In this document: one piece after another, positions 1 through 62,640 of the stretch
How positions within the stretch are numbered: position 1 is the first letter of the stretch
Layout: every line of letters starts with the position of its first letter
Assembly: GCA_036504735.1 (NCBI GenBank)
Contig: DASXUQ010000005.1
Location: forward strand, 217,377 to 281,376
Direction: 5' to 3'
DNA from: a bacterium
GTDB lineage: Bacteria; Electryoneota; RPQS01
DNA: 64,000 bases
Program-made: the position numbers and the translations under genes
The notes under the pieces: generated by a model
Database searches by the model: none
The model's input: only the letters and a program-made list of their open reading frames with translations
Told to the model about the DNA's origin: nothing

Positions 1-2710
1 TGTAGTTGAAGCGGGTCCGGCGTCCGGCTTCCGCCAGGCGCACCACCGAGTAATAGTACTTTCCATTCGCATGGGTAGTGGACACCAGATGCAGCGCCTG
101 ATCACGCGTCCACGTAAAGGGCCGTCTCGAATCCGCTACAGGAAGAGCATATGGAAATCCGGGGAAGGCGCTGCCATTATGGGATACTGCCGCAACCCTG
201 GTGTGCACGATGCTCGTTGCCGGAAGCGTGGAATCCGCCACCTGACGATCAGCCAGCCCGATCAGATCCGGATCGCCGCTGCAATCCACATCCATAACCC
301 ACGAGGTGTCTGCCGCTATGTGCGGAGCGTCCTCGCGCTCGAGTTCATGCCGTCCGAAGCGTCCACCGCCATCGGGGATGCCATCGCCGTTCCAGTCCAC
401 CTGAGGAGCCACACATTGCGGCTCTTCACAGAGCGTGGCGCCGGATGCCGCGCTGACATAGCCGAAGCCCTTCAAGTAAACATAAGACGAATCGCCGTGC
501 ACATTCACAACAATCGCCTGCGGCTGAATCCGCTGGTCGCCTTTGGTCCACGGCCAGGCAAACGACGAATCGCGCACGCTCAGGCACACGGCGGAGTCGT
601 TGGCCATGAGGACAAAGCCGGGCGACGGAAACGGTTTCAGATTGAAGGGAACGGTGGACAGGCCCGTGCCATGAACGGCACTCTGCCAGGAGACAAGGCG
701 GTTCAGATCGCCATCGTAAAGCGCGGTATAGAGGGTGCCGATCATCTGGTTGGTGTCTGCCGCGACCGCGAGAACTCGGGGAACGTAGGCCTCGGAACCG
801 TCGACCATCGCAGGATAAAGATGCACGTCGTTGTATTCCAGCGGCGGCAGCAAGAGCAGCGTATCGACACCGTTCACATTGCGCACGAGACCGACGCGGC
901 GGCCTTCGAACAGCAATTGATCGCGGAACCCGTCGCCGACAGAGGCAGGGAGCGAGTACCTGCTTAAGTGCATACCCGTGAGAAGATGAGCAACGAAGGA
1001 AAGATGCCCGACGGAATCGGCCTTGATCAGCGAATCGTTCGACGCAAAATAGATTTCCGGGCGGCCGTCGCCGTTCAGATCAGCCGTGACCCAGTCTGCG
1101 GGCGCGGTTAAGGCGACGGGAAATCCCGGTACAACCTTAGTCGACCGCACGACAAAACTCATCACGGGAGCGACGTCGGTAAAGTGTGACACATCCAGGT
1201 GCGGCAGGGAGCCGTCATAAAGGCGGTCGGAGGGGAATGTTCCGTCCGCAAAGCGCACGGTGAGCGAGTTGCCGTTGGCATCGCGGTGAAAATTGTTGCT
1301 GCTGTACCATGCGTCTTCGGGAACACCCAGTTCGGTCCCCGATCCTGCCGAGGCAAAGCCATATTCCTGCCCGATGTCCTGCGCACCGTCGGCTTCCACA
1401 AGATCAACACCGCGATGGTCGCGATTCGTGTTGACGGAGTTGGTCGAGAGCCCCTGCGCAATGACGTCTTCATCCACATGCCAGATCAGAACCCCGTTGC
1501 CGGGGATGCCGAAATCATAGCGATTGTCACGCACCCGCACCGCAACGCGAAATCCGGGTTCGATAGCCATGCGGCCATCGCGATACACCTGCAGGCGGCG
1601 ATTGCCGCGATCAAGCAATTCGACATACGCGCCGGTATCGGGAATCGCCGTAAAGGGAGAGTCCAGGTCGGCAGCACGGTTCTCGATCAGATAGTATTCG
1701 CGCGGAGTGACCGGGAGCTTCACCACCTGAAGCGTATCGGAACTGCCGAAACGGGCCACGTGGAGGGTGTCGCCGGATCCGGACGGCACAACTTCGAGCG
1801 GATGTTCCCAACCCATATAGACACGCGACCAGGCATCCGGCAGGGCAGGAACAAGGGCATTCACGTTGCCCGATCCCTGATCCATCATGCCCCAGCGGCC
1901 AATGCCGCTGGTCCCGGTTTGGGTGTTAAACAGATCGGGAAGGCCCAGCCAGTTGCCGAAGAGCTTGACCATAATGCCGTTCATGGACAGTTCGATGCCA
2001 AGGTCGAGGGCTTCCTGCTGGTTCTCACCTTCGGGAAGAATCAGACCACGGACCACACCGCTGGGAACGGTCTGCCCGGCCAAGTCCGTCTCGTTGATGT
2101 ACGCGGACGGAATATCAAACGGAGTGTTGTCGAAGCCGAGATTAAAATCTTTGCCGGTGCCCGCATGAAAGACAATGACGGCATCGTAGAGATTGAAATT
2201 CAGCGAGGGGTCCTGCTGGGCGGCTTTCCGCACGGCGTCCACAAACAGCGACACGAGACCGCGATTCAGATCCTGTTCGCTGGTGTTGTGGTTATAGTGC
2301 CACATCGGGTAATCGAGCCGGTAGGCCGCATGGGAGCTATCGCCGGCAGGGAAAACGGGGATCGTGTCAGCAAATACGATGTGGCCCTTGGAGACGGTCT
2401 CGTAATATGTGCGGAGAAACTTCAGGTGGTCGGCGAAATACAGGCTGTCGTGCGGGAGGGGATCGAGCACGAGAGACGTATCGAAGGCCGACTCCATGAG
2501 GCCGTTGCCCGTTGTGCCGGTCACGCTGTCTTCCCGGAATTCAACACGCAGCGCGAGCACGCGCAGAGGCCGCCCTCCGATCCAGCGATCATCGAGCGTC
2601 CGCGCGGTGGAAGGCACGGCGAGCGGCCGTGCCGCTTTGACGGCAGCGGGGGCTTCATGAGACAGAAGCCCCAACAGCGCCAGTGAAAGTACGAGGTGTC
2701 TTGCTGACAC
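1..2710 (-). CDS. Secreted M6-like (immune inhibitor A type) protein with a degenerate zinc site, 3' end outside window
   Basis: I read this frame directly from the reverse strand: it is open from a GTG at 2710 to the left edge, so the C-terminus is missing. It begins with a signal peptide (hydrophobic LVLSLALLGLL core). Residues of about 50-330 resemble the M6 peptidase fold: a GLPDLF stretch followed by SGIGRWGMMDQGSGN is the usual sequence just after the zinc helix. The expected HEFGH is KLFGN at residues 249-253, so both zinc histidines and the catalytic glutamate are replaced. Downstream are FG-GAP/EF-like calcium-loop motifs (DLNGDGRPEIYF, DWNGDGIPDGG). It starts 10 nt after the porV stop, so it is probably co-transcribed with porU-porV and may be a T9SS cargo or accessory protein. 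A sorting tail would lie outside the window. The M6 assignment is good; catalytic activity is doubtful. Confidence 0.75.
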   Translation of the reverse strand, partial: MSARHLVLSLALLGLLSHEAPAAVKAARPLAVPSTARTLDDRWIGGRPLRVLALRVEFREDSVTGTTGNGLMESAFDTSLVLDPLPHDSLYFADHLKFLRTYYETVSKGHIVFADTIPVFPAGDSSHAAYRLDYPMWHYNHNTSEQDLNRGLVSLFVDAVRKAAQQDPSLNFNLYDAVIVFHAGTGKDFNLGFDNTPFDIPSAYINETDLAGQTVPSGVVRGLILPEGENQQEALDLGIELSMNGIMVKLFGNWLGLPDLFNTQTGTSGIGRWGMMDQGSGNVNALVPALPDAWSRVYMGWEHPLEVVPSGSGDTLHVARFGSSDTLQVVKLPVTPREYYLIENRAADLDSPFTAIPDTGAYVELLDRGNRRLQVYRDGRMAIEPGFRVAVRVRDNRYDFGIPGNGVLIWHVDEDVIAQGLSTNSVNTNRDHRGVDLVEADGAQDIGQEYGFASAGSGTELGVPEDAWYSSNNFHRDANGNSLTVRFADGTFPSDRLYDGSLPHLDVSHFTDVAPVMSFVVRSTKVVPGFPVALTAPADWVTADLNGDGRPEIYFASNDSLIKADSVGHLSFVAHLLTGMHLSRYSLPASVGDGFRDQLLFEGRRVGLVRNVNGVDTLLLLPPLEYNDVHLYPAMVDGSEAYVPRVLAVAADTNQMIGTLYTALYDGDLNRLVSWQSAVHGTGLSTVPFNLKPFPSPGFVLMANDSAVCLSVRDSSFAWPWTKGDQRIQPQAIVVNVHGDSSYVYLKGFGYVSAASGATLCEEPQCVAPQVDWNGDGIPDGGGRFGRHELEREDAPHIAADTSWVMDVDCSGDPDLIGLADRQVADSTLPATSIVHTRVAAVSHNGSAFPGFPYALPVADSRRPFTWTRDQALHLVSTTHANGKYYYSVVRLAEAGRRTRFNY

Positions 2711-2720
2711 GAGCTTGGAT

Positions 2721-3770
2721 TTATAAATCAACGGAGAGTGAGTACCGCATGGTATCTGTGAGCGGGTGATTGGCGCCCGCGGTCAGATAGCTGAAATCGA
2801 ACCGGTAGCTACTGTACTTGAGAGAAATACCGAACGTATACGGGAAGACCTTCCCAAGGTGATCATTCCAGTAACCGGCGCGAAGGCCGACCAGCGTGGA
2901 ATACCAGTATTCCGCGCCGATGTTCCAGATCATGGTCTTGAGCAGGGCGTTGTCGTTCCACGCGCTGAAGAGCGCCTCGTAGAATTCGTCCGACTTGCCG
3001 GAAGGATAACGCTTGACCAGCTCCTTGTTGAGGTCGGAGGCGACGGTCAGCTTGTTGTATTCCTGATCGATGATCTTGTACGCAAGACCGGCCTTGAGGG
3101 TGGTGGGAAGCGGATCCGCCTGGGCACGGTCAATGTAAGAGACCTTGGGACCCATGTTGGAGAGGTTCGCACCGAACGACAGTCCGCGCATAAAGGGAGT
3201 CTTATAGAGCAGGCCGACGTCCGCGGCCACGGCGGTGGCGGTTCCGGTGCCGGCTTCAGCGCCCGCGCCGCTCGGCGACAGGTTACTGTAGGCCAGTTTG
3301 AGGGCGACGCCCATCGCCAGATGGCGGTTGATCTGCGCGCCGTAGGTGCCGGTGACGGCCATTTCGTAGGACGAGAAGGTTCCGAGCGAGTGGGCCTGTT
3401 CGTCCGTACGCTGGGTCTCTCCGAGATTGAGGAAGATAATGTTACCGCCGAAGGTTCCCCATTCCGGGACCTCGTACGTTCCGGCCATGTACGCGTAGTA
3501 GAGGTCGGACAGATTGAACTGCGGCAGCCAGCGCACGTACATCATGGTGAACTCACGGCCGTGCTGGAAGCCCAGCCCGGCGGGATTCCACCACGTCGCC
3601 GTGGCGTCATCGGCCAGTCCGACGAAAGCTTCGCCCATGCCCGCGGGCCGCGCACCGGGCGCGATCTTCAGGAACAGAAGCGTAGCCTGACTGACGCTGG
3701 CAGCTTGCGCCGTGGCTGCGAAAGTCACAAGCCCGGCGACCAGCAGGAACAACCCCATTCGCTTCATCAT
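2721..3770 (-). CDS. porV: PorV/PorQ-family outer-membrane beta-barrel (T9SS shuttle protein)
   Basis: 349 aa with a clear signal peptide (MGLFLLVAGLVTFAATAQA). The mature N-terminus carries the family hallmark PGARPAGMGEAFVGLADDA followed by the WWNPAGL motif seen in PorV/PorQ/UPF0164 barrels. The rest alternates amphipathic beta strands and ends in an aromatic, barrel-type C-terminus (MRYSLSVDL). In known T9SS, PorV (LptO) carries substrates from the translocon to the PorU sortase. The gene lies 40 nt downstream of porU, and this pairing argues for PorV rather than PorQ. It is in the same transcription unit as the M6-like gene that follows. Family membership is clear; the exact PorV role is inferred from context. 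Confidence 0.85.
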   Translation of the reverse strand: MMKRMGLFLLVAGLVTFAATAQAASVSQATLLFLKIAPGARPAGMGEAFVGLADDATATWWNPAGLGFQHGREFTMMYVRWLPQFNLSDLYYAYMAGTYEVPEWGTFGGNIIFLNLGETQRTDEQAHSLGTFSSYEMAVTGTYGAQINRHLAMGVALKLAYSNLSPSGAGAEAGTGTATAVAADVGLLYKTPFMRGLSFGANLSNMGPKVSYIDRAQADPLPTTLKAGLAYKIIDQEYNKLTVASDLNKELVKRYPSGKSDEFYEALFSAWNDNALLKTMIWNIGAEYWYSTLVGLRAGYWNDHLGKVFPYTFGISLKYSSYRFDFSYLTAGANHPLTDTMRYSLSVDL

Positions 3771-3810
3771 GCCTCCATTAACTATATAGACTTCGTTTGC
3801 TCGCGTACGT

Positions 3811-6800
3811 TCAGCGCAGAATCACCAGTTTACCGGTGGCTTCCGCGCTGTGACCGTTGGTGTGTTCGGCCTTGATGCGATAGAAATAGACGCCGTTTCC
3901 CAGCGGATGGCCTTCCCGGTCGCGGCCATCCCACGGGCGATCCGCATTGCTGTTGAATGCCGGGCCGCGCGTGCCAAGACCATTCATCTCATAGACCAGT
4001 TTGCCGGAGAGCGTGAAGAGCTTCAGACTCACCCGGCTGGTGCCGTCCTCTGTCAGGAAATAGGTGAAGTGCGTGACGTCCTTCATGGGATTCGGCCAGT
4101 TGTAGACGTCGCGGATGGCATAGCCTGCCTCGCCGCCCTGCCCTACCATAAAGGTAAGCGTCGTTTGATTCAGATTATTGAAGGAGTCCCAGGCTTCGAT
4201 GATCAGGCGATGCTCGCCGACGGTCAGCGGTCCGAGGACTTTCTCTAAGCTGCCTGTGGTATAGCGGTCCAGATCATAATTGAAGAAGGACGTCAGATCT
4301 TCGGTCTGCGCGTCATCAATCCGGCCCGTGATCTTGTGGCCAACTTCGCCGGACAAGTTCAAGCCGGAGTTGTCCGACAGATTGACATGCAACTTCGGCG
4401 TGCTGCTGACCAGATCGCCGGGCTTGAACGACGGTACCTCCAGCCATGCGCTGATCGCCGGCGGAATGGTGTCCTGCTCGGCAGAAGGCTGGCTGGCAAT
4501 CGGAATATGCTCCTGAATACCGATGCCGTCCGCCGAATCCGCGCCGGCGCTGTTATCTGCCCCATAGAAATAGAGGCTGATCTTGGCATTGTTGCCACCG
4601 AAGCGCACATCGCGCGGAACACGGAACGTCACATGAAACCGTCCGCTGTCCACCGTAGCCGTGCCGCGGAAGATTGCGTTGCCGGGCAAGCCGTAATAGA
4701 ACGGGGTATCCGTAGTATTTCCGCACCAGTAATAGGCAGCGGAATCCTGCGTATCAAACACACGGGCATCCACCACACCGCGGAAGTTCGACCAGACCGG
4801 GCCGCCATTTGTCTGCGAGACTTCGCCATCGAGATGAAAGAGCGACAGTGCCTGCAAGGTATCGTCGCTGGTGGGAGTCACCTTGGCGAAGAACTCCGGC
4901 GTAGCCAGACGCAATGCCGGATCACCGATGCAATGATAGTATTCGGTTCCGAGAGAGTGCGCAGCTTTGGCGGTGAGCATAGCCTCGCCGAAGCTCGTAC
5001 GCTGAGCCAATCCGGGACGGAACAGGCTGTCATAAAAGGCCACCATAAAGGCCTGGTTCGAGTAGGGATATGTGAACCGGGTGGCGGCCAGACTCATTAC
5101 CGAACCATCCGTGGGATCGGTAAGCAAGATCTCAGGGAAACAGCGGCCCACGGGGCGGTCATACTGGCCCCAAGAACAGGTGGCCGCCAGATAGAACGGC
5201 CATTTACGACCGTTGCGGAGCAGATTCTTATCGCGATCCATGACCAGCAACTGCTCGTCGGTCCATACCGTGGGGTTGCCGTGTCCGGTAAAATTGACTA
5301 CCAGAGTGCCACGATTAATGGCCTCAATAAGATCCCGGGTTGCATCGGGCTTGATGGAGCCTAAAGGACTGGATCGGAACGGATAGAGGATCTCGTAAAT
5401 CTTCTTGAAGGTGAAATACTGAGGAAGCACCGTAGACATCAGGGCTTCAGCCTGCTGAGTATGGGTGGTCTCCCCGCCGCCGCATCCTCCCTTCCATTCG
5501 TCATCCGCCGCAAAGGTTGCGGTGTTCTTCCAGGGACCGTAGAGTGGATGGACGGCATAGGCGATGGTTTTGGCCATCGCGTTCTCCAGTTCTGAATTGC
5601 CCTGAACGGGCCAGCGGCCAATCCGCAGCGACGGAATGGTGGAGCCCGCGGAGAACATCACGTAACTGTCATCGCGGCAGTCCTCCCCCAGTTCGAAGGG
5701 CGGCATCCAGTTGGCATCGGCGGCCGATTCAAGGTTGCGGTAATCATAATCACCGTCGCCGACGAACAGGACGTATTTGAGCGTTTGGCCACTCCACATG
5801 ACAGAGGCATATTTCAGGAAATTGCGGATTGCGACGGCGTCGTGCGGTCCCCAACTGAACTCGTCATACACATCGGTCAGCCGTACGCGCATCGTGCGCA
5901 GGGGCTCTTCGCGATAGGTCTCGTGGAACCGTTTCAGTGAATCCAGCAGCGTGTATCCATCGTCGTAAGTGAGGATGATCATATCCGCCACATTCGACGT
6001 GTCGCGCAGGCTGGTGTAATCCAAACCGTTAGGATTGCCCGGCTTGACACCGCGGGACTGCGGCGTCCGAATGCCGGCAGACTGAACGGCGAAGTACCGG
6101 TGCTGGGCCGACACAAAGGAGGAATCTACGATGGTATTGCCGACAGCGATGCGCGGAACAAGCGGATTGGTGACGTCGAGAACATAGCCGCTGGGATCGA
6201 ATTCGGTTACCGAGTAACGGAAGAGTCCGGTCTGGCTGGGCGGGGCATAGAATTCGGCAGAGCCACTGGCCGCCGTCAAAGTCCGCTCGTAGCGCACTTC
6301 AAGGAAGTTCACATAGATCGTGGCACTGGACGTATTCTCGAGCCGGATGACCACGTTGTTGCCGCTCCCTGTGCGGTTCAGCACGCCGCGCGGAATGGGC
6401 AGCATCATGCGGTCATTGTAATAGTTGGTAGAGATGGTTGTGTCACCGACCCAGACGGTCAGACGGGCGGGATAGGCGCTGACCTTATCCAGGGCCAGCA
6501 TCAAGGTGTCAATCGTTGCACCGGTCGCACCCTCGAGGGTCATCGTAAAACTGCGCGTTTCCGAAGGGCCGATGGTGGTCATGAACCAGACGAGGCCGGA
6601 TTGAGGCTCATTGCCACCGGCGAAGATAAACACGTCTTGATCAATATAGGCGCGGGCGCGACTGGCAAGGACGTTGGTGGCTCCGCTTCCGGTTGTAGGA
6701 AGGGCAGCCATGCGCAGGCCATCCGTCGCGGCGGGGTCCGCTCCAAGGAAGTAAATGTTCTCCGTGGTGTACGGACTCTGGTGAGCTTTCCCGCCCAAAT

Positions 6801-7728
6801 CGGCATTACCGTCACAGTAGTCCGCACCTTTGACGCCGCGGCCATAGAAGAGGATGCGGTCCTCCGCCTCAAAGACGCCGTTGCCATTGCGATCATCCAC
6901 AAAGATGGCGTCTTCTTTTAATGAGGAATCCACTTGGGTGTCGGGATTAACCGGCAGCAGCCGACCGCCATTGCCGAAAAGCTTGATGCTCCCGACCTGC
7001 CGGCCAACCAGACTGGACCCGATGACGGAATTTCCTCTCACCTCATACAGTCCCGCCTCCGTAACGGCAAGCCGCTGGAGGTCAAATTGAGGCCAAGCTG
7101 ATTGGACAGACTGGATCGTGGGGGTGGTCTTGAGGGCGCGGCGCTGATCCTGCCACCACGTGGCGGCGATGTTGCCGTTCATTGCTATGCGGCGCAGCGA
7201 TGCGGCTTCACGTGGCTGGGATGCAAACGAAGCAGGAGAACCCGTGAAAGCGAGGGAAAGGGAAATGTCGTCGAGAGTGGCACTGCGGCTGGCATCTCCG
7301 ACTTGGAGATACACCGTAACCTGCGCCAGGCGGAAGCCGCGCCAGTCTTCAAGATTGGTAAGCCGAGCCCATGCGGTGCTGGGAGTTTCCGCGCGGACGG
7401 CAGCGACCGGAGGCCTGCCCGGCAGACCGCGCAATTGTCCCGTCGTGCGGACGGATTGTATGGTGAGCTGCGGGGTTGTGCCCGGCGGAACTGCGATATA
7501 GAAGATGCGAACCGGCTGGACCAGATTCCGGCAGGTCAAATAGTCGGCATCCGCCCACTGCAGATTCACACCCTGAGTGTTGATGGAGTCCTGCTGCTCG
7601 AGGGTTGGCTTTCCGGGCGAATAGGTCCAGACAAACTCCTGAGCCGACGAGCGCACGGCACTGGTCCCGGCAAGGGCCAATGAGGCGCAAAGGGCGAGGG
7701 CTGCCACGGCGTAAGCAACTATTTTCAT
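3811..7728 (-). CDS. porU: T9SS sortase PorU (C25 gingipain-family peptidase)
   Basis: 1305 aa with a signal peptide (VAAL ALCASLALA core). After about 550 residues of beta-rich N-terminal region comes a C25 caspase-like domain. His816 lies in the FTGHGNP motif and Cys851 in AATCSWGQYDRP, spaced like the gingipain His/Cys dyad; the Cys context resembles PorU of Porphyromonas. A C-terminal Ig-like and FlgD/T9SS tail (VYNWPNPMKD ... GNGVYFYRIKA) closes the protein. PorU removes the C-terminal signal of T9SS cargo and links it to the cell surface. It is followed by porV and preceded by a long leader with its own promoter and terminator hairpin. Start ATG at 7728. This could be a gingipain-like cargo protein, but size, motif and the porV neighbour favour PorU. 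Confidence 0.85.
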   Translation of the reverse strand: MKIVAYAVAALALCASLALAGTSAVRSSAQEFVWTYSPGKPTLEQQDSINTQGVNLQWADADYLTCRNLVQPVRIFYIAVPPGTTPQLTIQSVRTTGQLRGLPGRPPVAAVRAETPSTAWARLTNLEDWRGFRLAQVTVYLQVGDASRSATLDDISLSLAFTGSPASFASQPREAASLRRIAMNGNIAATWWQDQRRALKTTPTIQSVQSAWPQFDLQRLAVTEAGLYEVRGNSVIGSSLVGRQVGSIKLFGNGGRLLPVNPDTQVDSSLKEDAIFVDDRNGNGVFEAEDRILFYGRGVKGADYCDGNADLGGKAHQSPYTTENIYFLGADPAATDGLRMAALPTTGSGATNVLASRARAYIDQDVFIFAGGNEPQSGLVWFMTTIGPSETRSFTMTLEGATGATIDTLMLALDKVSAYPARLTVWVGDTTISTNYYNDRMMLPIPRGVLNRTGSGNNVVIRLENTSSATIYVNFLEVRYERTLTAASGSAEFYAPPSQTGLFRYSVTEFDPSGYVLDVTNPLVPRIAVGNTIVDSSFVSAQHRYFAVQSAGIRTPQSRGVKPGNPNGLDYTSLRDTSNVADMIILTYDDGYTLLDSLKRFHETYREEPLRTMRVRLTDVYDEFSWGPHDAVAIRNFLKYASVMWSGQTLKYVLFVGDGDYDYRNLESAADANWMPPFELGEDCRDDSYVMFSAGSTIPSLRIGRWPVQGNSELENAMAKTIAYAVHPLYGPWKNTATFAADDEWKGGCGGGETTHTQQAEALMSTVLPQYFTFKKIYEILYPFRSSPLGSIKPDATRDLIEAINRGTLVVNFTGHGNPTVWTDEQLLVMDRDKNLLRNGRKWPFYLAATCSWGQYDRPVGRCFPEILLTDPTDGSVMSLAATRFTYPYSNQAFMVAFYDSLFRPGLAQRTSFGEAMLTAKAAHSLGTEYYHCIGDPALRLATPEFFAKVTPTSDDTLQALSLFHLDGEVSQTNGGPVWSNFRGVVDARVFDTQDSAAYYWCGNTTDTPFYYGLPGNAIFRGTATVDSGRFHVTFRVPRDVRFGGNNAKISLYFYGADNSAGADSADGIGIQEHIPIASQPSAEQDTIPPAISAWLEVPSFKPGDLVSSTPKLHVNLSDNSGLNLSGEVGHKITGRIDDAQTEDLTSFFNYDLDRYTTGSLEKVLGPLTVGEHRLIIEAWDSFNNLNQTTLTFMVGQGGEAGYAIRDVYNWPNPMKDVTHFTYFLTEDGTSRVSLKLFTLSGKLVYEMNGLGTRGPAFNSNADRPWDGRDREGHPLGNGVYFYRIKAEHTNGHSAEATGKLVILR

Positions 7729-22681: not shown

Positions 22682-23943
22682 CCGGCTCCCTGGCCTTCCT
22701 GTGGAAGGGCGACAAGCGTTAATGTAATGTCCATTGCCCGGCCTTTGCGGAAGATCTTCAGCGGCAGCTTATCCCCTACGCGCAAGTCGGCGCTCTTCAA
22801 AATTTCCTGCGCCCCCATCGCGGTCTCGATGGCCTTGCCGTTGATCTCCAGCAGAATATCCTCCACGTGAATACCCGCCTTGGCGGCTGGGCTGCCGGGA
22901 TCCACACTGGTTACGACGGCGCCGTGGTTGTTGGCTAATCCTTGCAGGCGGGCGTACGTCGGTGACAGATCCAGTGCGCGAATTCCGACCCAGAACTTGC
23001 GGTTGACTCCGCCCTTCAGAAGATCATCGATCGTGGCCGTGATGCGATTGGACGGGATCGCAAAGCCGATGCCGACCGAACCGCCTGACTGTGAAAAGAT
23101 CATCGTGTTCATACCGACAGCGACTCCATCGGCATTGAGCAACGGTCCGCCCGAATTGCCGGGGTTGATGGCAGCGTCGGTTTGGATCATATCGGTGTAA
23201 ACGCGTCCGTCGATCGCGCTCTGAAAATCGCGGTGCACGGCGGAAATGACACCGACCGAAACGGACGGTTGATCATTGATATCAAACAGACCGTACGGGT
23301 TTCCCAGTGCAATCGCCCATTCACCGACCAGCACATCCTGGCTGTCGCCCAGCGGAATGCACGGCAGATTCTTGGCGTCGATTTTCAACAGGGCCATATC
23401 CAGCAGCGGATCGGTGCCCACCACTTTGGCCGGATATTTGTTGCGCGTGGTGGTCGTAACAAACACCTGCGCGGCGTCGCGCACAACGTGTTCGTTGGTG
23501 ACGATGTAGCCATCCGGGCTGATAATAAACCCCGAGCCGAGGTTCTGCACCTTCTGTTTGATGGTCGGCGGCCACAGGCGCTCATCGAACATCATCCAGC
23601 CGAGGGGATCCACCGGCCTGTAGGGATTGCGCACTTCGCGAAGTTGTACAACGTTGATGCCGACCACTGCGCCCGAGGTATTGGCTACCGCGCGGGTAAT
23701 CGCATTGGAGCGGCTGCCGGACAGTTCGGCGGTCACATCGTGCGCCTTGGGATCATCGGTCGAAAACGTTTTGGGCGCGTCTGTCCCCGCGCCGGACGCG
23801 AGATGGGCACGTGCCACTTGAGAACCCGTAGCGAACCCCCGCAGCACGTCAATCTCCTGCTCAAGCTGCTGATTGCGGTGGAACTGGTAAAAGAACAGTC
23901 CTCCGAAAATCAGGCCGATTGCAAAGAAATTAAGTACTTTCAT
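22678..23943 (-). CDS. Membrane-anchored HtrA/DegP-like serine protease with one PDZ domain
   Basis: 421 aa from the ATG at 23943. The N-terminus is an uncleaved transmembrane anchor (LNFFAIGLIFGGLFFYQF), then a low-complexity linker of about 80 residues. The trypsin-like domain has the full triad: His152 (VTNEHVV), Asp182 (LLDMALLKI) and Ser264 (GNSGGPL). One PDZ domain (about 325-410; GIHVEDILLEINGKAI) follows. The layout is that of DegS rather than DegP, which has two PDZ domains and a cleaved signal. It probably works in the periplasm in stress sensing or quality control. The ATG shares one base with the truA stop; the gene overlaps purB at its other end. Confidence 0.92.
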   Translation of the reverse strand: MKVLNFFAIGLIFGGLFFYQFHRNQQLEQEIDVLRGFATGSQVARAHLASGAGTDAPKTFSTDDPKAHDVTAELSGSRSNAITRAVANTSGAVVGINVVQLREVRNPYRPVDPLGWMMFDERLWPPTIKQKVQNLGSGFIISPDGYIVTNEHVVRDAAQVFVTTTTRNKYPAKVVGTDPLLDMALLKIDAKNLPCIPLGDSQDVLVGEWAIALGNPYGLFDINDQPSVSVGVISAVHRDFQSAIDGRVYTDMIQTDAAINPGNSGGPLLNADGVAVGMNTMIFSQSGGSVGIGFAIPSNRITATIDDLLKGGVNRKFWVGIRALDLSPTYARLQGLANNHGAVVTSVDPGSPAAKAGIHVEDILLEINGKAIETAMGAQEILKSADLRVGDKLPLKIFRKGRAMDITLTLVALPQEGQGAG

Positions 23944-24767
23944 CACCACGTGTCAGAATCCTCATTCCTTGGCTGGCTATGTTCCCGCCAGGGTTCGTAA
24001 CCTACTTTGATCAGTGTCAGGCCTGCCGCTGGCGCTTTCGGTCCGGCTTGCCGGACATCTTCCGCCGCCATAATTTGCTTCAGTCGTTCGATTTCAGTCT
24101 TTCCACGGCCTATGTTGACAAAGGTTCCAACAAGCAGCCTGACCATGCCGTGCAAAAACCGGTTCGCCTCAACGCGGAATTCAAGGAAGGGATCAGCGGC
24201 GATCCATTCCGCGCGGTAGACGGTGGAGAGGTAGTGAACCTCTTTGGGATTGAAATGGGCAAAGGCCCGGAATCGGTGACTGCCCAGAATGAGTTGCGCG
24301 GCTTCATGCATTGGACGGTGGTCCAGGGTATTGGGACACGTCCAGCAGTAAGAACGGCCAATGGCAATCGGTCTGCGAGCAATGCGGTAGCGATATCCGC
24401 GCCACTGTGCGCTAAAGCGCGCATGAAAGTCGGATTCTGCCAGTTGAACATTCCGCACGCGAACATCCGGGGGAAGCAGGGCGTTCATGGCCCGGAAGAC
24501 GACTGGCGGCTCACGGTAGCTGTCCACCCGAAAATGAGCGACTTGCCCAGTGGCATGAACTCCAGCGTCCGTTCGCCCGGCCCCGATGACAGGAACCTCT
24601 TCGCCGAATAGCTCTATTACAGCCTTCTGAAGGCAATCCTGAACGGTTCTCTCGCGCGGCTGGAACTGCCATCCGGCGAAGTCCGTGCCGTCATATTCCA
24701 CATCGAAGCGATATGTATATTGTCGATGCAGATCGGAATCGATGGGAGCGCTCAGGTTCAGGTCCAT
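23943..24767 (-). CDS. truA: tRNA pseudouridine(38-40) synthase
   Basis: 274 aa from the ATG at 24767, which lies just inside ecfT; a GTG 15 nt upstream is an alternative. It has the TruA start YRFDVEYDGTDFAGWQFQP and the catalytic loop GAGRTDAGVHATGQ with Asp67. Further family elements are RGYRYRI and NRFLHGMVRLLVGT. It converts uridines 38-40 of the anticodon stem to pseudouridine. The same ecfT-truA order is known from Firmicutes, where both sit in one operon. The stop shares a base with the htrA-like start. Confidence 0.95.
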   Translation of the reverse strand: MDLNLSAPIDSDLHRQYTYRFDVEYDGTDFAGWQFQPRERTVQDCLQKAVIELFGEEVPVIGAGRTDAGVHATGQVAHFRVDSYREPPVVFRAMNALLPPDVRVRNVQLAESDFHARFSAQWRGYRYRIARRPIAIGRSYCWTCPNTLDHRPMHEAAQLILGSHRFRAFAHFNPKEVHYLSTVYRAEWIAADPFLEFRVEANRFLHGMVRLLVGTFVNIGRGKTEIERLKQIMAAEDVRQAGPKAPAAGLTLIKVGYEPWREHSQPRNEDSDTW

Positions 24768-25516
24768 AAGGTCAGAACACACCCTATAGCGAACAGAAAG
24801 GTGGCAACCCCTTCATACGGCGACACTTCGGAAGCATTCATGGAGGTGCGTTTCGCCGCCGGATCAAAACCTCGGGCTTCCAGGGCCAGGGACACCTGAT
24901 CCGCGCGCCGGAAGGCATTGAGCATCAGCGGGAAAAGCAGCTTTCGATTTCGCGTCAACTTGTCCCAAATTGTCTTGTCTGCTGGTTCTCCGCGTGCTGC
25001 TAAGGCAAGGTTCAGCCGTTGATATTCCTGTTCGAGGAACGGCACAAACTGCAGGGCCAAGCTTATGGTCAATTCGAGATGCGCCGCCTTTGCCCGCCAG
25101 AATGGCAGTTTAGCAGCCAATCGCGCCAACTCCCGGCTATACTGTTGGGGGGTGTACGCATTTAGCAGCGCAATTCCCAGCGCGAGGATCACCACAAGGC
25201 GAGTCGTGAAGAATCCGGCAGTGGCAAGCCCCGACGCATTAAGATCAATTCTTGGCCAGAAGCTGAAAGCTGCGGATGGATGGCTGCTTAGCGCTGCGTG
25301 CAGCAGGAAGGTCAGCAGCAGGAACGGCCACAGCTTTAGCGTCTTCCGTCCGACCACAGTTAGCGGGACGCGCCCCGCCAGCATCATACACAAACACAAT
25401 ACTATCAGTAAGATAAATGGAAGTAAGCGATTGACAAAGATCAACGTTCCCATCAGGACCAGCGAAGCAAAAAGCAGGCTAACGGGATGGGGACGGAAAG
25501 GCGCGCCCGACTCCAA
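24758..25516 (-). CDS. ecfT: Energy-coupling factor transporter transmembrane protein EcfT
   Basis: 252 aa. It has five to six hydrophobic helices and the two Ala-Arg-Gly coupling motifs of EcfT (LALAARGE and LALEARGFD). It would join an EcfA ATPase pair to substrate-binding S components in a group II ECF importer. No EcfA gene is in the window. One S component is encoded far away at 61878-62435 under a cobalamin riboswitch. The start is TTG at 25516 with GAGG five nt upstream; a promoter lies at 25547-25575. The last base pairs overlap truA. Confidence 0.9.
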   Translation of the reverse strand: MESGAPFRPHPVSLLFASLVLMGTLIFVNRLLPFILLIVLCLCMMLAGRVPLTVVGRKTLKLWPFLLLTFLLHAALSSHPSAAFSFWPRIDLNASGLATAGFFTTRLVVILALGIALLNAYTPQQYSRELARLAAKLPFWRAKAAHLELTISLALQFVPFLEQEYQRLNLALAARGEPADKTIWDKLTRNRKLLFPLMLNAFRRADQVSLALEARGFDPAAKRTSMNASEVSPYEGVATFLFAIGCVLTLWT

Positions 25517-56631: not shown

Positions 56632-57903
56632 TCACTTCAGGTAGACAAGCTTTTGCACCGTTTTTGGATCTGCTTGTTCCCAAATAGCGTAATAAATTCC
56701 TGATGTTATGTAACTTCGAGATGAACTCTGAGGTGCCCAGAGAATCTCATTTGCTCCCGCTGGAACCAGCACTTTGGCTATCTGCCTTCCTAATTCGTTA
56801 TAAATCAATATATAACTATTGGCTGGCATCGTCGTGCTGAGTTTCAGGCGGACGGCGCTGTTGAAGGGGTTGGGAAACGCCTCTGTCAGGGCGAATTGCC
56901 TCGGGACAGGCCCAATTATTGGCCTCGCCTCATCTGGGGCACCGAACAACACCATCTGACCGGGGCCTGTGGACATCGGAAAGACGTCAATCCTGCTGCC
57001 GTCACGCATTCGGTGTTCGACCTGATTGGCCGCAAAACAACTGACAAAGAAGGTCGTGTCGGGCTGGGCCTCGACATCCGTCGCCCCCTCTCCCACCGGG
57101 ATCGGGTTAGCCGAACTGTTCAGGATGGACAAGTCATCCAGTCGGTATCGAAAAACCGCTCCGGGTCCACCCCATCCGCCAGCGGCCACGAACGCAGTAC
57201 CGCCGCCGAAGCTGACGTTTCCAGGGGTTCCACCCACGGCCAGAACGGTATCGGTATGCAAAGTTTCCAGATTTACGACATGGATCTGACCGGGTACATC
57301 AGCGTAGTTACCTGTGCAGACCACATGCAGGCGGTTCCGGTCATCCACTTGGGCCGACTGGGGATTTGTGCCTACTCGGATGCTGTCGAGCAGCCTCAGA
57401 GTGCTCCGGTCATAGACCATCACTACTCCGGGACCGTAGCCGGAGGTCTGGTAGCGTGTCAGGCAAACGAACAATCGACTGTCATGTACCAGAATTCCTT
57501 CCGGTCCAAGACCCACGGGGATAGTTCCTACCTGAGCGCCATCGGACAGCCGCAACAGGACCACATTGTTGCTCAGCCAGTTCGTGACGGCCAGAGTATC
57601 ATCATTGATGAAAGCCAGCGAATAGGGGTTCGCACCGCCCGTGACGGGGATTTCGCGCAACGTTGTGTTGGTGACGGCGTCGATTTCCTGAACCGTGTTC
57701 AGCCCCGAGTTGGTCACATAGAGATGGGAGCCGTGCGCCACAATGTCATTGCACAGGTGCCCCAGCGAGAGCACGTGAGTATCCACCTGACCATTGGCCA
57801 GATTGATCTCCCCGAGGGATTCATCACTGACTTGCACCACATACAGCCGCTCCTGAGCCATCAGGGCTCCCGCGCATATCAAAAACACCAGCAGTCGAAT
57901 CAT
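56632..57903 (-). CDS. Secreted seven-bladed YncE-type beta-propeller with T9SS sorting tail (BtuG-like candidate)
   Basis: 423 aa. A signal-peptidase-I type leader (LLVFLICAGALMA) is followed by seven YVTN/YncE-style repeats (about 17-325), for example RLYVVQVSD, HLYVTNSGLNTVQEID and TLAVTNWLSNNVVLL. The end has FPNPFNSAVRLKLS and TSGIYYAIWEQ, closing in KLVYLK: a type A T9SS sorting domain. In Bacteroides the surface propeller BtuG binds B12 next to BtuB; here a propeller lies 13 nt after a BtuB-like gene in a cobalamin-riboswitch operon. No lipobox is present, so T9SS would do the surface delivery. B12 binding is inferred. The DNA of the last about 60 codons is unusually AT-rich. Confidence 0.8.
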   Translation of the reverse strand: MIRLLVFLICAGALMAQERLYVVQVSDESLGEINLANGQVDTHVLSLGHLCNDIVAHGSHLYVTNSGLNTVQEIDAVTNTTLREIPVTGGANPYSLAFINDDTLAVTNWLSNNVVLLRLSDGAQVGTIPVGLGPEGILVHDSRLFVCLTRYQTSGYGPGVVMVYDRSTLRLLDSIRVGTNPQSAQVDDRNRLHVVCTGNYADVPGQIHVVNLETLHTDTVLAVGGTPGNVSFGGGTAFVAAGGWGGPGAVFRYRLDDLSILNSSANPIPVGEGATDVEAQPDTTFFVSCFAANQVEHRMRDGSRIDVFPMSTGPGQMVLFGAPDEARPIIGPVPRQFALTEAFPNPFNSAVRLKLSTTMPANSYILIYNELGRQIAKVLVPAGANEILWAPQSSSRSYITSGIYYAIWEQADPKTVQKLVYLK

Positions 57904-57916
57904 GTTTCTTTACAGG

Positions 57917-60070
57917 CTAAAGTTGGGAAACACGGATAGCCGCATAGATTTCCCGCCCGGGCATAGGGGCAAAGCGCACAATGCGGTAGTTTTCATCAAA
58001 CAGGTTGTTGGCGCCAACGGTCGGTTCAATGCACATGCGGCTCAGACGGAAACCGTAGCTGAAGCGCAGATCGGCGACCTGATACGCGCGAAGCCATTTG
58101 GAATTAGTTTCCAGCACAGGGCGGGCGGACAGCCAACGGCAGTTTGCGACAAATTCCGCACCGTGCAGTTTGAGCGTCAGCGTTCCCCGGTATGAGCGCG
58201 GTGCGCGAAAGGTCAGATACTTGCCGCCCGTGTTGCGGTCATTCGTGGCGTCGCGAGCTTCCGTCCAGTTCACGCCGGCTGACAACTGCACGCAGTCGTT
58301 CCAGGCGGATTGCTTGAGGTCAAGATCGAGAGTCCGCACATGCGCACGATTCAAGTTGAACGGCTTCCAGCGGCCATCGAATGTACGCTTCCAATAAATG
58401 AGGTCATTGACGCGCTGATCCGATGCTTCCGCCTCGAGCCGCAACCCGTGAACGATGGACGGCTCAACGTGTGCGCTGCCCGTCCACTCCGATGACAGCT
58501 CTGATTTCAGGTCCGGGTTCCCCTGTGCCGCCTGGTCATCGAGCCAAAACAGAGAATAGAAGCTTGGCGCTCGATAGGATTTTCCCCAGGACACGGTTGC
58601 TCCTGCATCAAGGGCACCGGGATGGTCGAGAGTCACGCTGACCTTGGGAAGCAGCGCCTGGCCGTGACCGTACGCTTCCCAGCGGGCGCCGCCATCCCCG
58701 GAGAGCGCCAACTCACGGTGTGACGACGTGTAGAGTGTATGGCCGATCTGTGTCCAGCCCGCCCAGCGGGTACGTGCGGCGCGTCCCGCACTAATCTGGC
58801 TGCTGTACAGCGACTCACGGGACACTAGTGTTCCCCCGCTAAGTGAGGCACCCTTGGCCTGCGTGTTGCCGCGCAGTTCACCTTCCCATCCGGAGCTGGA
58901 TTCGGAACTGTACGGCGCGAGGCTATAGATGTCCGGATCCGTGAAGCCGCGCCGATCGTGTCCATAGGCTCCGCGCGCTTGCATGCGAACCGGGCCGATG
59001 CTATGCTCCATGCGCACATTTACCGACTGTTGAGTCGTGCTCTGCCGGGCCAGCGGAGTCAATTGCGGCGCAAGGTAACCCGGCATGCCGCGAACGGCAC
59101 GATCCAAGTAACCTGTGGCTTCAAGCAGGCCATCGCCATCCAACGTGGCGGACAGTTTCAGCAGAAGCTGATCGCGGGCCACATCGGCGTTGATCCTTCG
59201 AAAAGACTTGCCGAGGTTCACAGTGAACGGCCCGTTGCCGTCATCTTCCGTAATGGTGTACCGGAAATCACCGGGACCCTGAGTCCTGCAATACGACAAA
59301 AGACTGGAGAGAGTTCCAGTCTTTGCAGATTTCAGGACATTAAGTGTCTGATAGGTCGGATGCGCCTCACCTTCCACCGAGAGTTCGCCGCGCTCGCCGG
59401 CGTTACGGGTGGTGATTTCCAGAATCCCGCCGATGGCTTCGCCTCCCTCATCCGGACGTCCGCCACGCGACACCTTGACCGACTGGACCCAATCCAATGG
59501 AATAGCCGACAGATCCGCCTCACCACTGCCGAGACTGCGCATGCGCTGACCATCGACCAGCACCAGCACCTGATCGGCATTTGAGCCGCCGATCCGCACG
59601 ATCTGCGCCCCGCCCGCGGTGCCGTCGCTGCGCACATCGAGTCCGGCGGAGCGGTTCAGAAACTCCGGTAGAGTGCGAGCGGTGCCGGCCTGAATGTCTT
59701 TGCGAGTAAAGACGTGTGCGTCGCCCATACGCCGCTGCGTTTCCACGACCACTTCCGGGAGGGTCACGGACAGCCTCTGCAAGGCGATGGGCATGCCCAG
59801 CCGCTGCCCGGGGGAAAGATCAAAGGACGTATCCCGTGCTGCATATCCTTCCGCTGCGGCTTCAAGGCGGTATTGCCCGGCGGCCAATCCGTCAAATGTC
59901 GCTTTGCCCATCTCGTCAGTCTGAGCCGCACGATCAAAAGGCCAAAGCAACACTGTGGCGGAAGATACAGGACGGCCCGCATCCAGAACCCGCACGTCGA
60001 TGGACGCTCCCGTCTGAGCAAGGGCCATGACCGTGCAGATCAGGCAGATCACCGCGGCCAGCCGAATCAC
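57917..60070 (-). CDS. TonB-dependent outer-membrane receptor, BtuB-like
   Basis: 717 aa. A signal peptide is followed by a carboxypeptidase-regulatory-like domain (about 22-100), then a TonB-box-like LPEVVVETQ, a plug domain (about 115-225; VLVLVDGQRMRS, GGILEITTRN) and a 22-strand barrel. The barrel end GANNLFDENYRI and final IYAAIRVSQL are standard. It overlaps the upstream barrel gene by four nt. The riboswitch at the head of the operon makes cobalamin (or a corrinoid) the likely ligand, with BtuB function inferred. Energy would come from TonB-ExbBD elsewhere. Confidence 0.85.
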   Translation of the reverse strand: MIRLAAVICLICTVMALAQTGASIDVRVLDAGRPVSSATVLLWPFDRAAQTDEMGKATFDGLAAGQYRLEAAAEGYAARDTSFDLSPGQRLGMPIALQRLSVTLPEVVVETQRRMGDAHVFTRKDIQAGTARTLPEFLNRSAGLDVRSDGTAGGAQIVRIGGSNADQVLVLVDGQRMRSLGSGEADLSAIPLDWVQSVKVSRGGRPDEGGEAIGGILEITTRNAGERGELSVEGEAHPTYQTLNVLKSAKTGTLSSLLSYCRTQGPGDFRYTITEDDGNGPFTVNLGKSFRRINADVARDQLLLKLSATLDGDGLLEATGYLDRAVRGMPGYLAPQLTPLARQSTTQQSVNVRMEHSIGPVRMQARGAYGHDRRGFTDPDIYSLAPYSSESSSGWEGELRGNTQAKGASLSGGTLVSRESLYSSQISAGRAARTRWAGWTQIGHTLYTSSHRELALSGDGGARWEAYGHGQALLPKVSVTLDHPGALDAGATVSWGKSYRAPSFYSLFWLDDQAAQGNPDLKSELSSEWTGSAHVEPSIVHGLRLEAEASDQRVNDLIYWKRTFDGRWKPFNLNRAHVRTLDLDLKQSAWNDCVQLSAGVNWTEARDATNDRNTGGKYLTFRAPRSYRGTLTLKLHGAEFVANCRWLSARPVLETNSKWLRAYQVADLRFSYGFRLSRMCIEPTVGANNLFDENYRIVRFAPMPGREIYAAIRVSQL

Positions 60071-61881
60071 AGCCAGAGCCTGATCATAAAGCCAAGGTAC
60101 TCCTCTTTGCCGATCATCTTGTACCCCGGGAGAATATAGTATGGCTGATTGAGGAAGTTTTCCGTGCCCCAGATAGCGGTCACACCTCGAATCGTGGCCG
60201 AGATTCGAATACCCATCGAGCTATTAGGACCGAGGACCGCCTGCCCTAACTCCGAATACGCGACGCGCTGCCCGAAAAACTCGTCGCTGACATGAGCGCG
60301 AATAATCAGCGGCGTGCTGAAAAACGCATGCTCGAAATAGAGCCGGGCGTAGCCGCGGGAATCCACAAGATTACCTAGGTCATTGGCCGCCGCTTGTCCA
60401 AATCCCCATCCTTCAAGGCGAAGCCCCCATTTCAAGGGAATGGAAGTCGCTACGGACACCCCGACCTGCGCCGTATCCCTGCTCACAAAAGTTGGCGCGA
60501 GGTAAATGTTGTGAAACTGGTCATTGCTGAGACTGAACACATTCCGCAAATGTCCAGGATGACTCAGGCGCATGGCCGTGACATCCACATATCCGCCGCT
60601 GAGATCCCATCTTACACCCAGGTCGGATTTCCAGTATCTGTCAGTTGCCCGCGCCGTCGTATCTGTGTAGGGAACATATCGAAGGGACACATCACCAAAT
60701 TCCGGGGCGGCCAATAGTGGTCGGTCGCTTAATGTGTACGATCCGAACCGCCATGCCAGCGGCGCCAGTTCTTCTGTCCATTGCGTGCCGCCGTGCAGCA
60801 CGAAATCGGACATCGGCACCGATTCGAATCGCGCGCCGATCCCTGACACGACATCGTTTTGTTTAGGAATGCCCAGACCGGTGTTAGATTCCCGCCGCAC
60901 GTTGCCGAAGACTGTCACACCCCCGACCGCCAAGCCGATGGAGTCCGCCGCATGCAATTCGAGCCAGAGTTCATCCCGTTTGGCAAAGCCCGGGAAGTTG
61001 ATGGTGCTCAAGGTGCTCAGTTGCCGGAATGTGAAACGCTGATCCGGCAGCGTGGCATGGGCTTCTAAAATAGCACCCCGCGTCAGTTCGCGTTGCTGGA
61101 AGGGATTGCCCCACTTCTCCCTGTCCTGCCGGGCGTACAGTTTCAATGATGGATCGAACGCCGTGCGCGCGGAGTCCTTTTGCGCAACGGTGAGAATTCC
61201 CTCGTGCCGCTCAAGATAGAACTGCCGGGGGCTGAGAGGGGTCAGGCTGTTGACCACCGAACCGGCGTAGGTGATGTACGAACGCCAGCGCGGTCCCAGA
61301 TCAAATCCCACGCGTCCTCGCACCCAGCGGTCTCGCGAGGAATCGTTGCGCCCCGGATTGTTCGGGAGGCTGCGCAGTCCGTTATAAAAGAGCAGGCGTC
61401 CCGTCACCTCGAGAGTCAGCGATTTGTGAATGCGTTCGCCCTGCGCGAAGTCTACCGTCCCGTAACCGTAGAATCCCTCGCGGATGTGCACCTCGGTATA
61501 GGGCGTATCCGATTGAAACGTCCGCGTTGCCAGGTCAAACCGGCCCGCTCCTCCATCACGCAGGTAATCATAACGGATCGAGTCGAGTTCGATGCCCGGT
61601 TGCAGATTCGGATCATACAACCCGTCGGAAACACGGTTCTGCGGGATACCGTCGCGATCCACGCGGAGTTCCCAGGGATTCAGATTCCATGGCCGGAACA
61701 GCAGGGGCTGCCCGACGTTGCCGTAGTCCAGCGGATACATGCCGGGATACCGCCGCAGCAGATCGCTGAGATCTTCATACGGCAGTGTCCACAGGTCTTT
61801 CTGCCGGAATACCGGTCCCTGGCACCACGCCGCGCCTGCGGCGAGGATGAAAGCAAGAACGAAAAGTGCGGTACGTTTCAC
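60067..61881 (-). CDS. Outer-membrane beta-barrel with plug-like N-terminus
   Basis: 604 aa. A signal peptide (TALFVLAFILAAGAAWC) precedes a region that resembles a TonB-receptor plug: DLSDLLRRYPGMYPLDYG, then LRVDRDGIPQN and LDSIRYDYLRDGGAG. No TonB box is seen. The rest is amphipathic beta strands with many aromatic girdle residues and ends EYLGFMIRLWL. It overlaps both the ECF S gene and the BtuB-like gene by four nt, so all three are translationally coupled. I do not recognise a named family. It may be a second outer-membrane corrinoid component or a reduced receptor. Confidence 0.75.
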   Translation of the reverse strand: MKRTALFVLAFILAAGAAWCQGPVFRQKDLWTLPYEDLSDLLRRYPGMYPLDYGNVGQPLLFRPWNLNPWELRVDRDGIPQNRVSDGLYDPNLQPGIELDSIRYDYLRDGGAGRFDLATRTFQSDTPYTEVHIREGFYGYGTVDFAQGERIHKSLTLEVTGRLLFYNGLRSLPNNPGRNDSSRDRWVRGRVGFDLGPRWRSYITYAGSVVNSLTPLSPRQFYLERHEGILTVAQKDSARTAFDPSLKLYARQDREKWGNPFQQRELTRGAILEAHATLPDQRFTFRQLSTLSTINFPGFAKRDELWLELHAADSIGLAVGGVTVFGNVRRESNTGLGIPKQNDVVSGIGARFESVPMSDFVLHGGTQWTEELAPLAWRFGSYTLSDRPLLAAPEFGDVSLRYVPYTDTTARATDRYWKSDLGVRWDLSGGYVDVTAMRLSHPGHLRNVFSLSNDQFHNIYLAPTFVSRDTAQVGVSVATSIPLKWGLRLEGWGFGQAAANDLGNLVDSRGYARLYFEHAFFSTPLIIRAHVSDEFFGQRVAYSELGQAVLGPNSSMGIRISATIRGVTAIWGTENFLNQPYYILPGYKMIGKEEYLGFMIRLWL

Positions 61882-62435
61882 GAGACTTTCAAGGCCCTTT
61901 CAAGCCGGGGCACAAAAGGAACAACGATGATGAGGAACACGAGCGTGTTGGAGATCAGATGAATGAGCGCGAACGGCACGCCGGCCGCCAGTGTCACCCA
62001 CATCTCGGAAACAGAAAACCCGGCCATCACGGGAAAGGCCAGGTTCGTTATCAAATCGAAAAATAGAGTGGCGACGATTCCGAGTCCGACCATGACACTC
62101 GCATACCATGTGCCTTTCTCGCGTCCGCGCACGAGAAACGCCGCCAGCGATCCGGCCAATCCCGCCGCCGCCATGCCGATGACCTGCGCCACGAGCACAA
62201 GTCCGAGCGAGCTTCCCATGGGGTTGAAGCCGGCAAACAGAGCCTCGGTCAGACCTCCGGTCAGCAATCCCCCGCCCGGCCCGAGCATGAACCCGGCGAT
62301 AAAGCAGATCGCCGTTACCAGTTCAACATTGGGTATGCCGCTCAGCGCGACTCCCGCCACCAGTCCCAGCGCGACGAACATCGCCAGACGCGTGAGCAGG
62401 AGCGGCGGACGACCCAGCCGGGACTCGATACTCAT
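61878..62435 (-). CDS. ECF transporter S component, putative cobalamin-specific
   Basis: 185 aa from the ATG at 62435, six nt after GGAG. Six hydrophobic helices are seen; the start of the membrane part (LTRLAMFVALGLVAGVALS) and IPNVELVTAICFIAGFMLG are typical of ECF S components (substrate-binding, RibU-like fold). The cobalamin riboswitch directly upstream makes B12 or a precursor the likely substrate. A shared EcfT is encoded at 24758-25516. It overlaps the outer-membrane gene. Whether it is CblT-, BtuM- or CbrT-like I cannot say. Confidence 0.82.
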   Translation of the reverse strand: MSIESRLGRPPLLLTRLAMFVALGLVAGVALSGIPNVELVTAICFIAGFMLGPGGGLLTGGLTEALFAGFNPMGSSLGLVLVAQVIGMAAAGLAGSLAAFLVRGREKGTWYASVMVGLGIVATLFFDLITNLAFPVMAGFSVSEMWVTLAAGVPFALIHLISNTLVFLIIVVPFVPRLERALKVS

Positions 62436-62441
62436 CTGCAT

Positions 62442-62461
62442 CTCCCCGCCAAAGCGGAGAG
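62442..62461 (-). promoter_or_regulatory. Ribosome-binding-site hairpin of the B12 operon
   Basis: CTCTCCGC (62461-62454) pairs with GCGGGGAG (62449-62442) around TTTG. The 3' arm contains the Shine-Dalgarno of the ECF S gene. This is a likely expression platform of the riboswitch, acting on translation. Confidence 0.6.
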
Positions 62462-62494
62462 CCTCCACCTGAACCTTACGACCGAAGGATACTG

Positions 62495-62632
62495 TATACG
62501 GCTGGCAGGTCTCCTGGCTGAGCGCGGCATTCAGTGAAGAAAGCCGCGCTTTCACAGTTGCGGGTCAGCGACGGAATCACACCGTCTTCCCTATTCTTCC
62601 GCTTGCGCGGACACCAACCGCTGGTGTGCAAA
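62495..62632 (-). promoter_or_regulatory. Cobalamin (B12) riboswitch
   Basis: The reverse strand shows the conserved cobalamin aptamer elements in order: GGTGT, AATAGGGAAGACGGTG, TGATTCCGTCGCTGACC, the CCGCAACTGTGAAAGC core, and the B12 box AGCCAGGAGACCTGCCAGC (62519-62501). It lies between the rplS terminator and the ECF S gene. Binding of adenosylcobalamin should lower translation of the uptake operon through the hairpin at 62442-62461. Exact ends are approximate. Confidence 0.93.
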
Positions 62633-62640
62633 CAAAGAAC

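Follow-up and report, generated by a model that had tools for sequence, protein, structure and literature searches.

Operon and riboswitch

The window, by which we mean the whole stretch of 64,000 nucleotides analysed here, carries on its minus strand, from 62633 to 56632, a riboswitch followed by the genes for an S component, a barrel, a BtuB-like transporter and a propeller. The features of this operon, and those found elsewhere in the window, are as follows.

62487–62633, minus strand: cobalamin riboswitch aptamer (RF00174; 80.7 bits against a gathering cut-off of 31.5, E 2.8e-18)
62442–62461, minus strand: hairpin CTCTCCGC/GCGGGGAG covering the Shine-Dalgarno-like GGGGAG, between the aptamer and the start codon
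61878–62435, minus strand: ECF transporter S component (PF12822, E 6.9e-10; 39.6 bits against a cut-off of 30.7)
60067–61881, minus strand: outer-membrane protein with TonB-dependent receptor fold and degenerate plug (model and Foldseek)
57917–60070, minus strand: BtuB-like TonB-dependent transporter with an N-terminal CarboxypepD_reg domain (TIGR01779, E 6e-38)
56632–57903, minus strand: secreted seven-bladed beta-propeller, BtuG-like (type I signal peptide, YVTN repeats, model)
57856–57903, minus strand: type I signal peptide of the propeller, MIRLLVFLICAGALMA, without lipobox (sequence)
56635–56883, minus strand: predicted T9SS type A sorting tail of the propeller, FPNPFNS ... LVYLK (TIGR04183, PF18962)
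24758–25516, minus strand: EcfT, CbiQ family, beside truA; the genome's one detected copy
3811–7728, minus strand: porU, T9SS sortase (Peptidase_C25 with CHU_C)
2721–3770, minus strand: porV (PF19572, E 7.9e-23)

The reading frame of the barrel overlaps those of the S component and of the BtuB-like receptor by 4 nt each, and the stop of the receptor lies 13 nt from the start of the propeller. The S component likely starts at the ATG at 62435, 6 nt after GGGGAG, while the list of open reading frames has it start at 62555. Judged by eye from the translations, the genes flanking the operon look like rplS and trmD at one end and like trpS at the other end. Its aptamer is the only cobalamin riboswitch in the 4.16 Mb genome (98% complete). 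A preliminary description of this DNA had claimed a translationally coupled operon with the riboswitch and these four genes, and we confirm that the riboswitch and the coupled operon are real and not a product of chance.

The seven counted pairs of the hairpin form in 7 of 7 close relatives, and in three of these one pair is changed from CG to UA, on both sides. Since the hairpin lies over the ribosome-binding site and is paired in all seven, translational control is suggested, and the hairpin is probably the translational expression platform. Its fold energy is unremarkable (z −0.43), and the case for it is made by the conserved pairing and the one compensatory pair. From the aptamer and the hairpin one would expect that translation of the operon opens when cobalamin is scarce.

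The propeller and the receptors

The protein encoded at 57917–60070 has TIGR01779 as its top family, but its score of 130.7 bits lies below the curated cut-off of 599.7, and we therefore call it BtuB-like. Its matches in the PDB include E. coli BtuB (E 8e-18) and Bacteroides BtuB1-3. The preceding gene (60067–61881) had been taken for an outer-membrane barrel; an outer-membrane protein it is, but of a more specific kind, being itself a plugged TonB-receptor fold. Its sequence matches no Pfam or NCBIfam family, its model (pLDDT 81.6) has E. coli BtuB (2gsk, TMq 0.76) as best Foldseek match, and a homologue at locus L040 matches Plug and TonB_dep_Rec. The operon thus encodes two BtuB-fold proteins. 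When both barrels were inspected by eye, a TonB-box-like stretch (LPEVVVETQ) was evident only in the 57917–60070 protein and none was seen in the other, which may perhaps serve as a co-receptor. The plugged TonB-receptor-fold protein is retained next to a full receptor; two receptors also precede the propeller at loci L102, L103, L105 and L113, in Ignavibacteria and Neomarinimicrobiota.

An AlphaFold2 model of residues 17–325 of the propeller, built with 23 sequences, reaches a pLDDT of 95.9 and shows 28 strands, which make up seven blades; together with the sequence, it bears out the earlier reading of the protein as a seven-bladed propeller that carries a type I signal peptide. The solved BtuG structures are among its top Foldseek matches (TMq 0.79–0.84, E 1e-13 to 6e-18), with E. 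coli YncE clearly behind (TMq about 0.70, E 1e-10), so that the structural comparison with BtuG, which the preliminary description had put forward as a check, returned a BtuG-like fold. The archaeal S-layer propeller 1l0q, which has YVTN repeats as well, scores as highly as BtuG against the model, and for this reason the fold alone is not BtuG-specific; unlike 1l0q, the window propeller has a B12 context and a T9SS tail.

As a single sequence, the window propeller matches 8ptf/8ptd with E 1.4e-7, over part of the propeller, and BtuG2 with E about 0.5, while the family profile reaches E 6e-23 and 2e-14 against solved BtuG, with 1l0q scoring higher. The sequence link to BtuG therefore appears weak by single sequence and moderate by profile. 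At the level of sequence, the gap between the window propeller and BtuG is closed by homologues from Bacteroidota: a T9SS-tailed propeller beside a TonB receptor (L205) aligns with BtuG3/BtuG2 over 306 residues (E 1e-25 to 1e-22), ranking them ahead of every other solved propeller, and for a lipoprotein propeller (L228) the matches to BtuG entries have E 2e-25 to 3e-19. Conservation is higher in the loops on the D-A/B-C face (1.73 bits) than in those on the other face (1.14 bits; p 1e-4), and the key residues of the D-A/B-C face are identical across lipid-, T9SS- and dockerin-type propellers. We also looked at charge: the ligand face of BtuG2 is the more negative one (PMC10404256), whereas in a crude loop-charge count the conserved face of the present family is not the more negative of the two, which gives no support to a negative ligand face and speaks against the comparison with BtuG.

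The linkage of the propeller to the riboswitch and to a BtuB-like receptor, for which a survey of gene order had been suggested, is conserved in relatives. A strong propeller match was found in 37 of the 39 genomes of the window's phylum, and homologues occur in records named, among others, Zixiibacteriota, Cloacimonadota, KSB1, Calditrichaeota, Neomarinimicrobiota, WOR-3, Ignavibacteriae and LCP-89. The trio of riboswitch, BtuB-like receptor and propeller is found again in at least six phyla of the FCB group. Outside the Bacteroidota sample, a TonB receptor lies directly upstream of 67 of 92 propellers, and a riboswitch is linked to 51 of the 78 propellers searched, 12 more being 5 kb or less from a contig edge; because the loci examined were the better matches, these fractions are not population estimates. 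Among 376 sampled genomes of Bacteroidota, 118 have a propeller match, and all 39 of those selected have a same-strand riboswitch no more than about 4 kb upstream. The contig scan used the closer propeller alignment instead of the wide one, and such a single search pattern biases the sample. In published descriptions BtuG is a surface lipoprotein exclusive to Bacteroidetes (PMC6143338; PMC10404256; PMC12751083); here the riboswitch-receptor-propeller unit is present in several FCB phyla beyond Bacteroidota as well.

These data bear on whether the propeller binds B12 at all. It could be a surface protein that is regulated by B12 without binding it, for example a receptor cap or a binder of another ligand, as YVTN propellers are generic and 1l0q scores as high as BtuG. 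However, the riboswitch, the neighbouring receptor and the conserved face are constant across phyla, and the Bacteroidota members provide sequence continuity with BtuG, all of which makes a non-binding protein quite improbable. By analogy, the window propeller is probably a surface B12 catcher, BtuG-like in function; as with BtuG, its conserved face would bind cobamides, and the protein would serve the BtuB-like transporter as lid or capture subunit.

Predicted surface anchoring and its exchange

The lipobox, which belongs to the lipoprotein criterion for BtuG (lipobox, cysteine and LES), is absent from the window propeller and from its T9SS-tailed relatives, and this is why we name the protein BtuG-like rather than BtuG. 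In isolation, its C-terminal tail scores 21.8 bits with TIGR04183, just below the cut-off of 23 bits, and 23.1 bits with PF18962. The domain might on these grounds be an ordinary FlgD-like Ig fold carrying no T9SS signal: the tail falls slightly below the curated cut-offs, and FlgD_ig is matched by 26 of 44 family tails as well. Against this, TIGR04183 is matched by 43 of the 44 (E 0.01 or better), the PNPF motif and the terminal K/R are retained, the tail takes the place of the lipobox, and porU and porV are present. We consider an FlgD-like domain without sorting role most improbable, and the T9SS tail proposed earlier is by far the more probable reading; the earlier statement that porU and porV lie in the same window is confirmed. 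In having a signal peptide and a probable C-terminal sorting domain, with porU-porV present, the window propeller is like T9SS type A cargo handled by PorU/PorV; unlike such cargo in the literature searched, it is a predicted nutrient-capture propeller in a B12 operon. It would be exported by Sec, cross the outer membrane by T9SS via its C-terminal tail and, most likely, be attached to the surface by PorU/PorV.

The T9SS-tailed propeller is not a one-off: it belongs to a family that spans the FCB group and shows three types of anchor, of which the T9SS tail is one. Scoring the N- and C-terminal ends separately under strict rules, we found among 136 propellers 77 with a C-terminal tail and no lipobox (66 T9SS and 11 dockerin-like), 57 with a lipobox and no tail, and two with neither, both of which show LATC, probably a non-canonical lipobox. 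Tail and lipobox exclude each other (Fisher 2e-36, a value that ignores kinship). Under looser rules, lipobox calls also appeared inside tailed proteins; these were dismissed, the residue preceding the cysteine not being G, A or S. A quick tree of 134 propellers, whose root is not known, implies about 10 anchor changes, at least four of them forced by well-supported branches, and family f7 alone mixes lipid (L033, L034, L035) and T9SS (L031, L032) propellers. The T9SS tail replaces the lipid both outside and inside Bacteroidota.

We lean towards the view that BtuB has long had BtuG-type propellers as partners throughout the FCB group, with an exchangeable anchor: lipid, T9SS and dockerin-like tail would have been interchanged repeatedly while the conserved face stayed unchanged, so that the lid function would be independent of the lipid hinge of Bacteroides. 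The family makes it testable whether the BtuBG capping mechanism requires that hinge.

Several loci show further arrangements. Zixibacterial B12-operon propellers (L065, L066, L068, L069, L072, L076, L081, L082, L083, L088 and L097) end in dockerin type I repeats, with a dockerin type I match in 9 of the 11 tails of this clade, and a cohesin partner would be expected for them. In KSB1/Caldithrix (L090, L093, L098, L111, L112) a further domain of about 200 extra residues stands between the propeller and the T9SS tail. At L070, L073, L074, L203, L204, L241 and L242 two propellers lie in tandem in one B12 locus, a lipoprotein and a T9SS-tailed one.

The tandem pairs could represent a surface form and a released form, and T9SS type A cargo can be either anchored or released. 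The propeller might accordingly bind B12 but be set free by T9SS, to scavenge B12 in soluble form and bring it back to the receptor. Yet a single propeller directly follows the receptor gene in the window and in most relatives, and what relatives use as the alternative anchor is a lipid, which retains the protein. We regard release as rather unlikely and anchoring at the surface as the preferred reading.

The inner membrane step and the proposed uptake route

The S component, the sole PF12822 protein of the genome, has as its best PDB match 6fnp_A, an entry of the cobalamin transporter ECF-CbrT, at a weak E of 0.0014. The window also holds the genome's one detected ecfT, with no ecfA genes beside it. 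The adjacency of ecfT and truA (23943–25516) is seen in relatives too, and ecfT lies next to truA in Firmicutes as well. None of the ABC ATPases of the genome passes the EcfA cut-off, so that EcfA was not singled out among them. A permease of the FecCD/BtuC type is absent from the genome and present in 13 of 14 control genomes, and CobS was found in 0 of 23 genomes. Three B12-binding domains occur in the genome, one of them within a frame of 1166 residues that, from its size and domain, we infer to be MetH. The lack of a BtuC-type permease and of CobS, with one PF12822 protein and one EcfT, fits salvage through an ECF importer; the earlier proposal of an ECF importer instead of BtuCDF is supported by the absent permease and the single EcfT.

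The weak similarity to CbrT and the lack of an ATPase above the EcfA cut-off would also suit an S component that imports, say, cobalt, cobinamide or dimethylbenzimidazole, with B12 entering by an unrecognised route. But the S gene is the first after the aptamer, it stays within the operon in several families, and the genome is without BtuC and CobS, which makes another substrate unlikely.

The operon is like Bacteroides BtuB-BtuG (PMC6143338, PMC10404256) in combining a riboswitch, a BtuB-type transporter and an adjacent seven-bladed propeller, whose model matches solved BtuG structures. Unlike the Bacteroides system, it has an ECF S component in a genome that lacks BtuC, and a propeller that is distant in sequence and carries a type I signal peptide and a T9SS tail instead of a lipobox, in an organism outside Bacteroidetes. 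The small ECF-family S component and the lack of a BtuC-type permease recall ECF-CbrT of Lactobacillus delbrueckii (PMC5997447); the differences are that the window S component is very distant, that the ATPases were not found in the genome and that a cell with an outer membrane needs uptake across it too. In the literature searched, outside which most subscription papers lie, neither BtuG nor B12 uptake was linked to T9SS cargo.

We estimate at about 0.75 the probability that the operon encodes a BtuBG-type system for B12 salvage and capture in which the anchor has been swapped and an ECF importer takes the inner-membrane step. After capture by the propeller, TonB-driven transport by the BtuB-like transporter would deliver B12 to the periplasm. 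From there the S component would carry it, as its presumed substrate and together with the lone EcfT and ATPases, into a cell that manages without CobS and BtuC. The alternative surface B12 capture system envisaged in the preliminary description, composed of a T9SS-anchored propeller, a barrel receptor and an ECF importer, is supported. This suggests that surface B12 capture extends well beyond the gut, and T9SS would gain a role in vitamin uptake.

Finally, at one related locus (L041, oriented 1486–3798) the S component and the TonB-fold barrel lie in a single open frame of 770 aa, which joins an inner- and an outer-membrane protein and reflects either a fusion or a missing stop.
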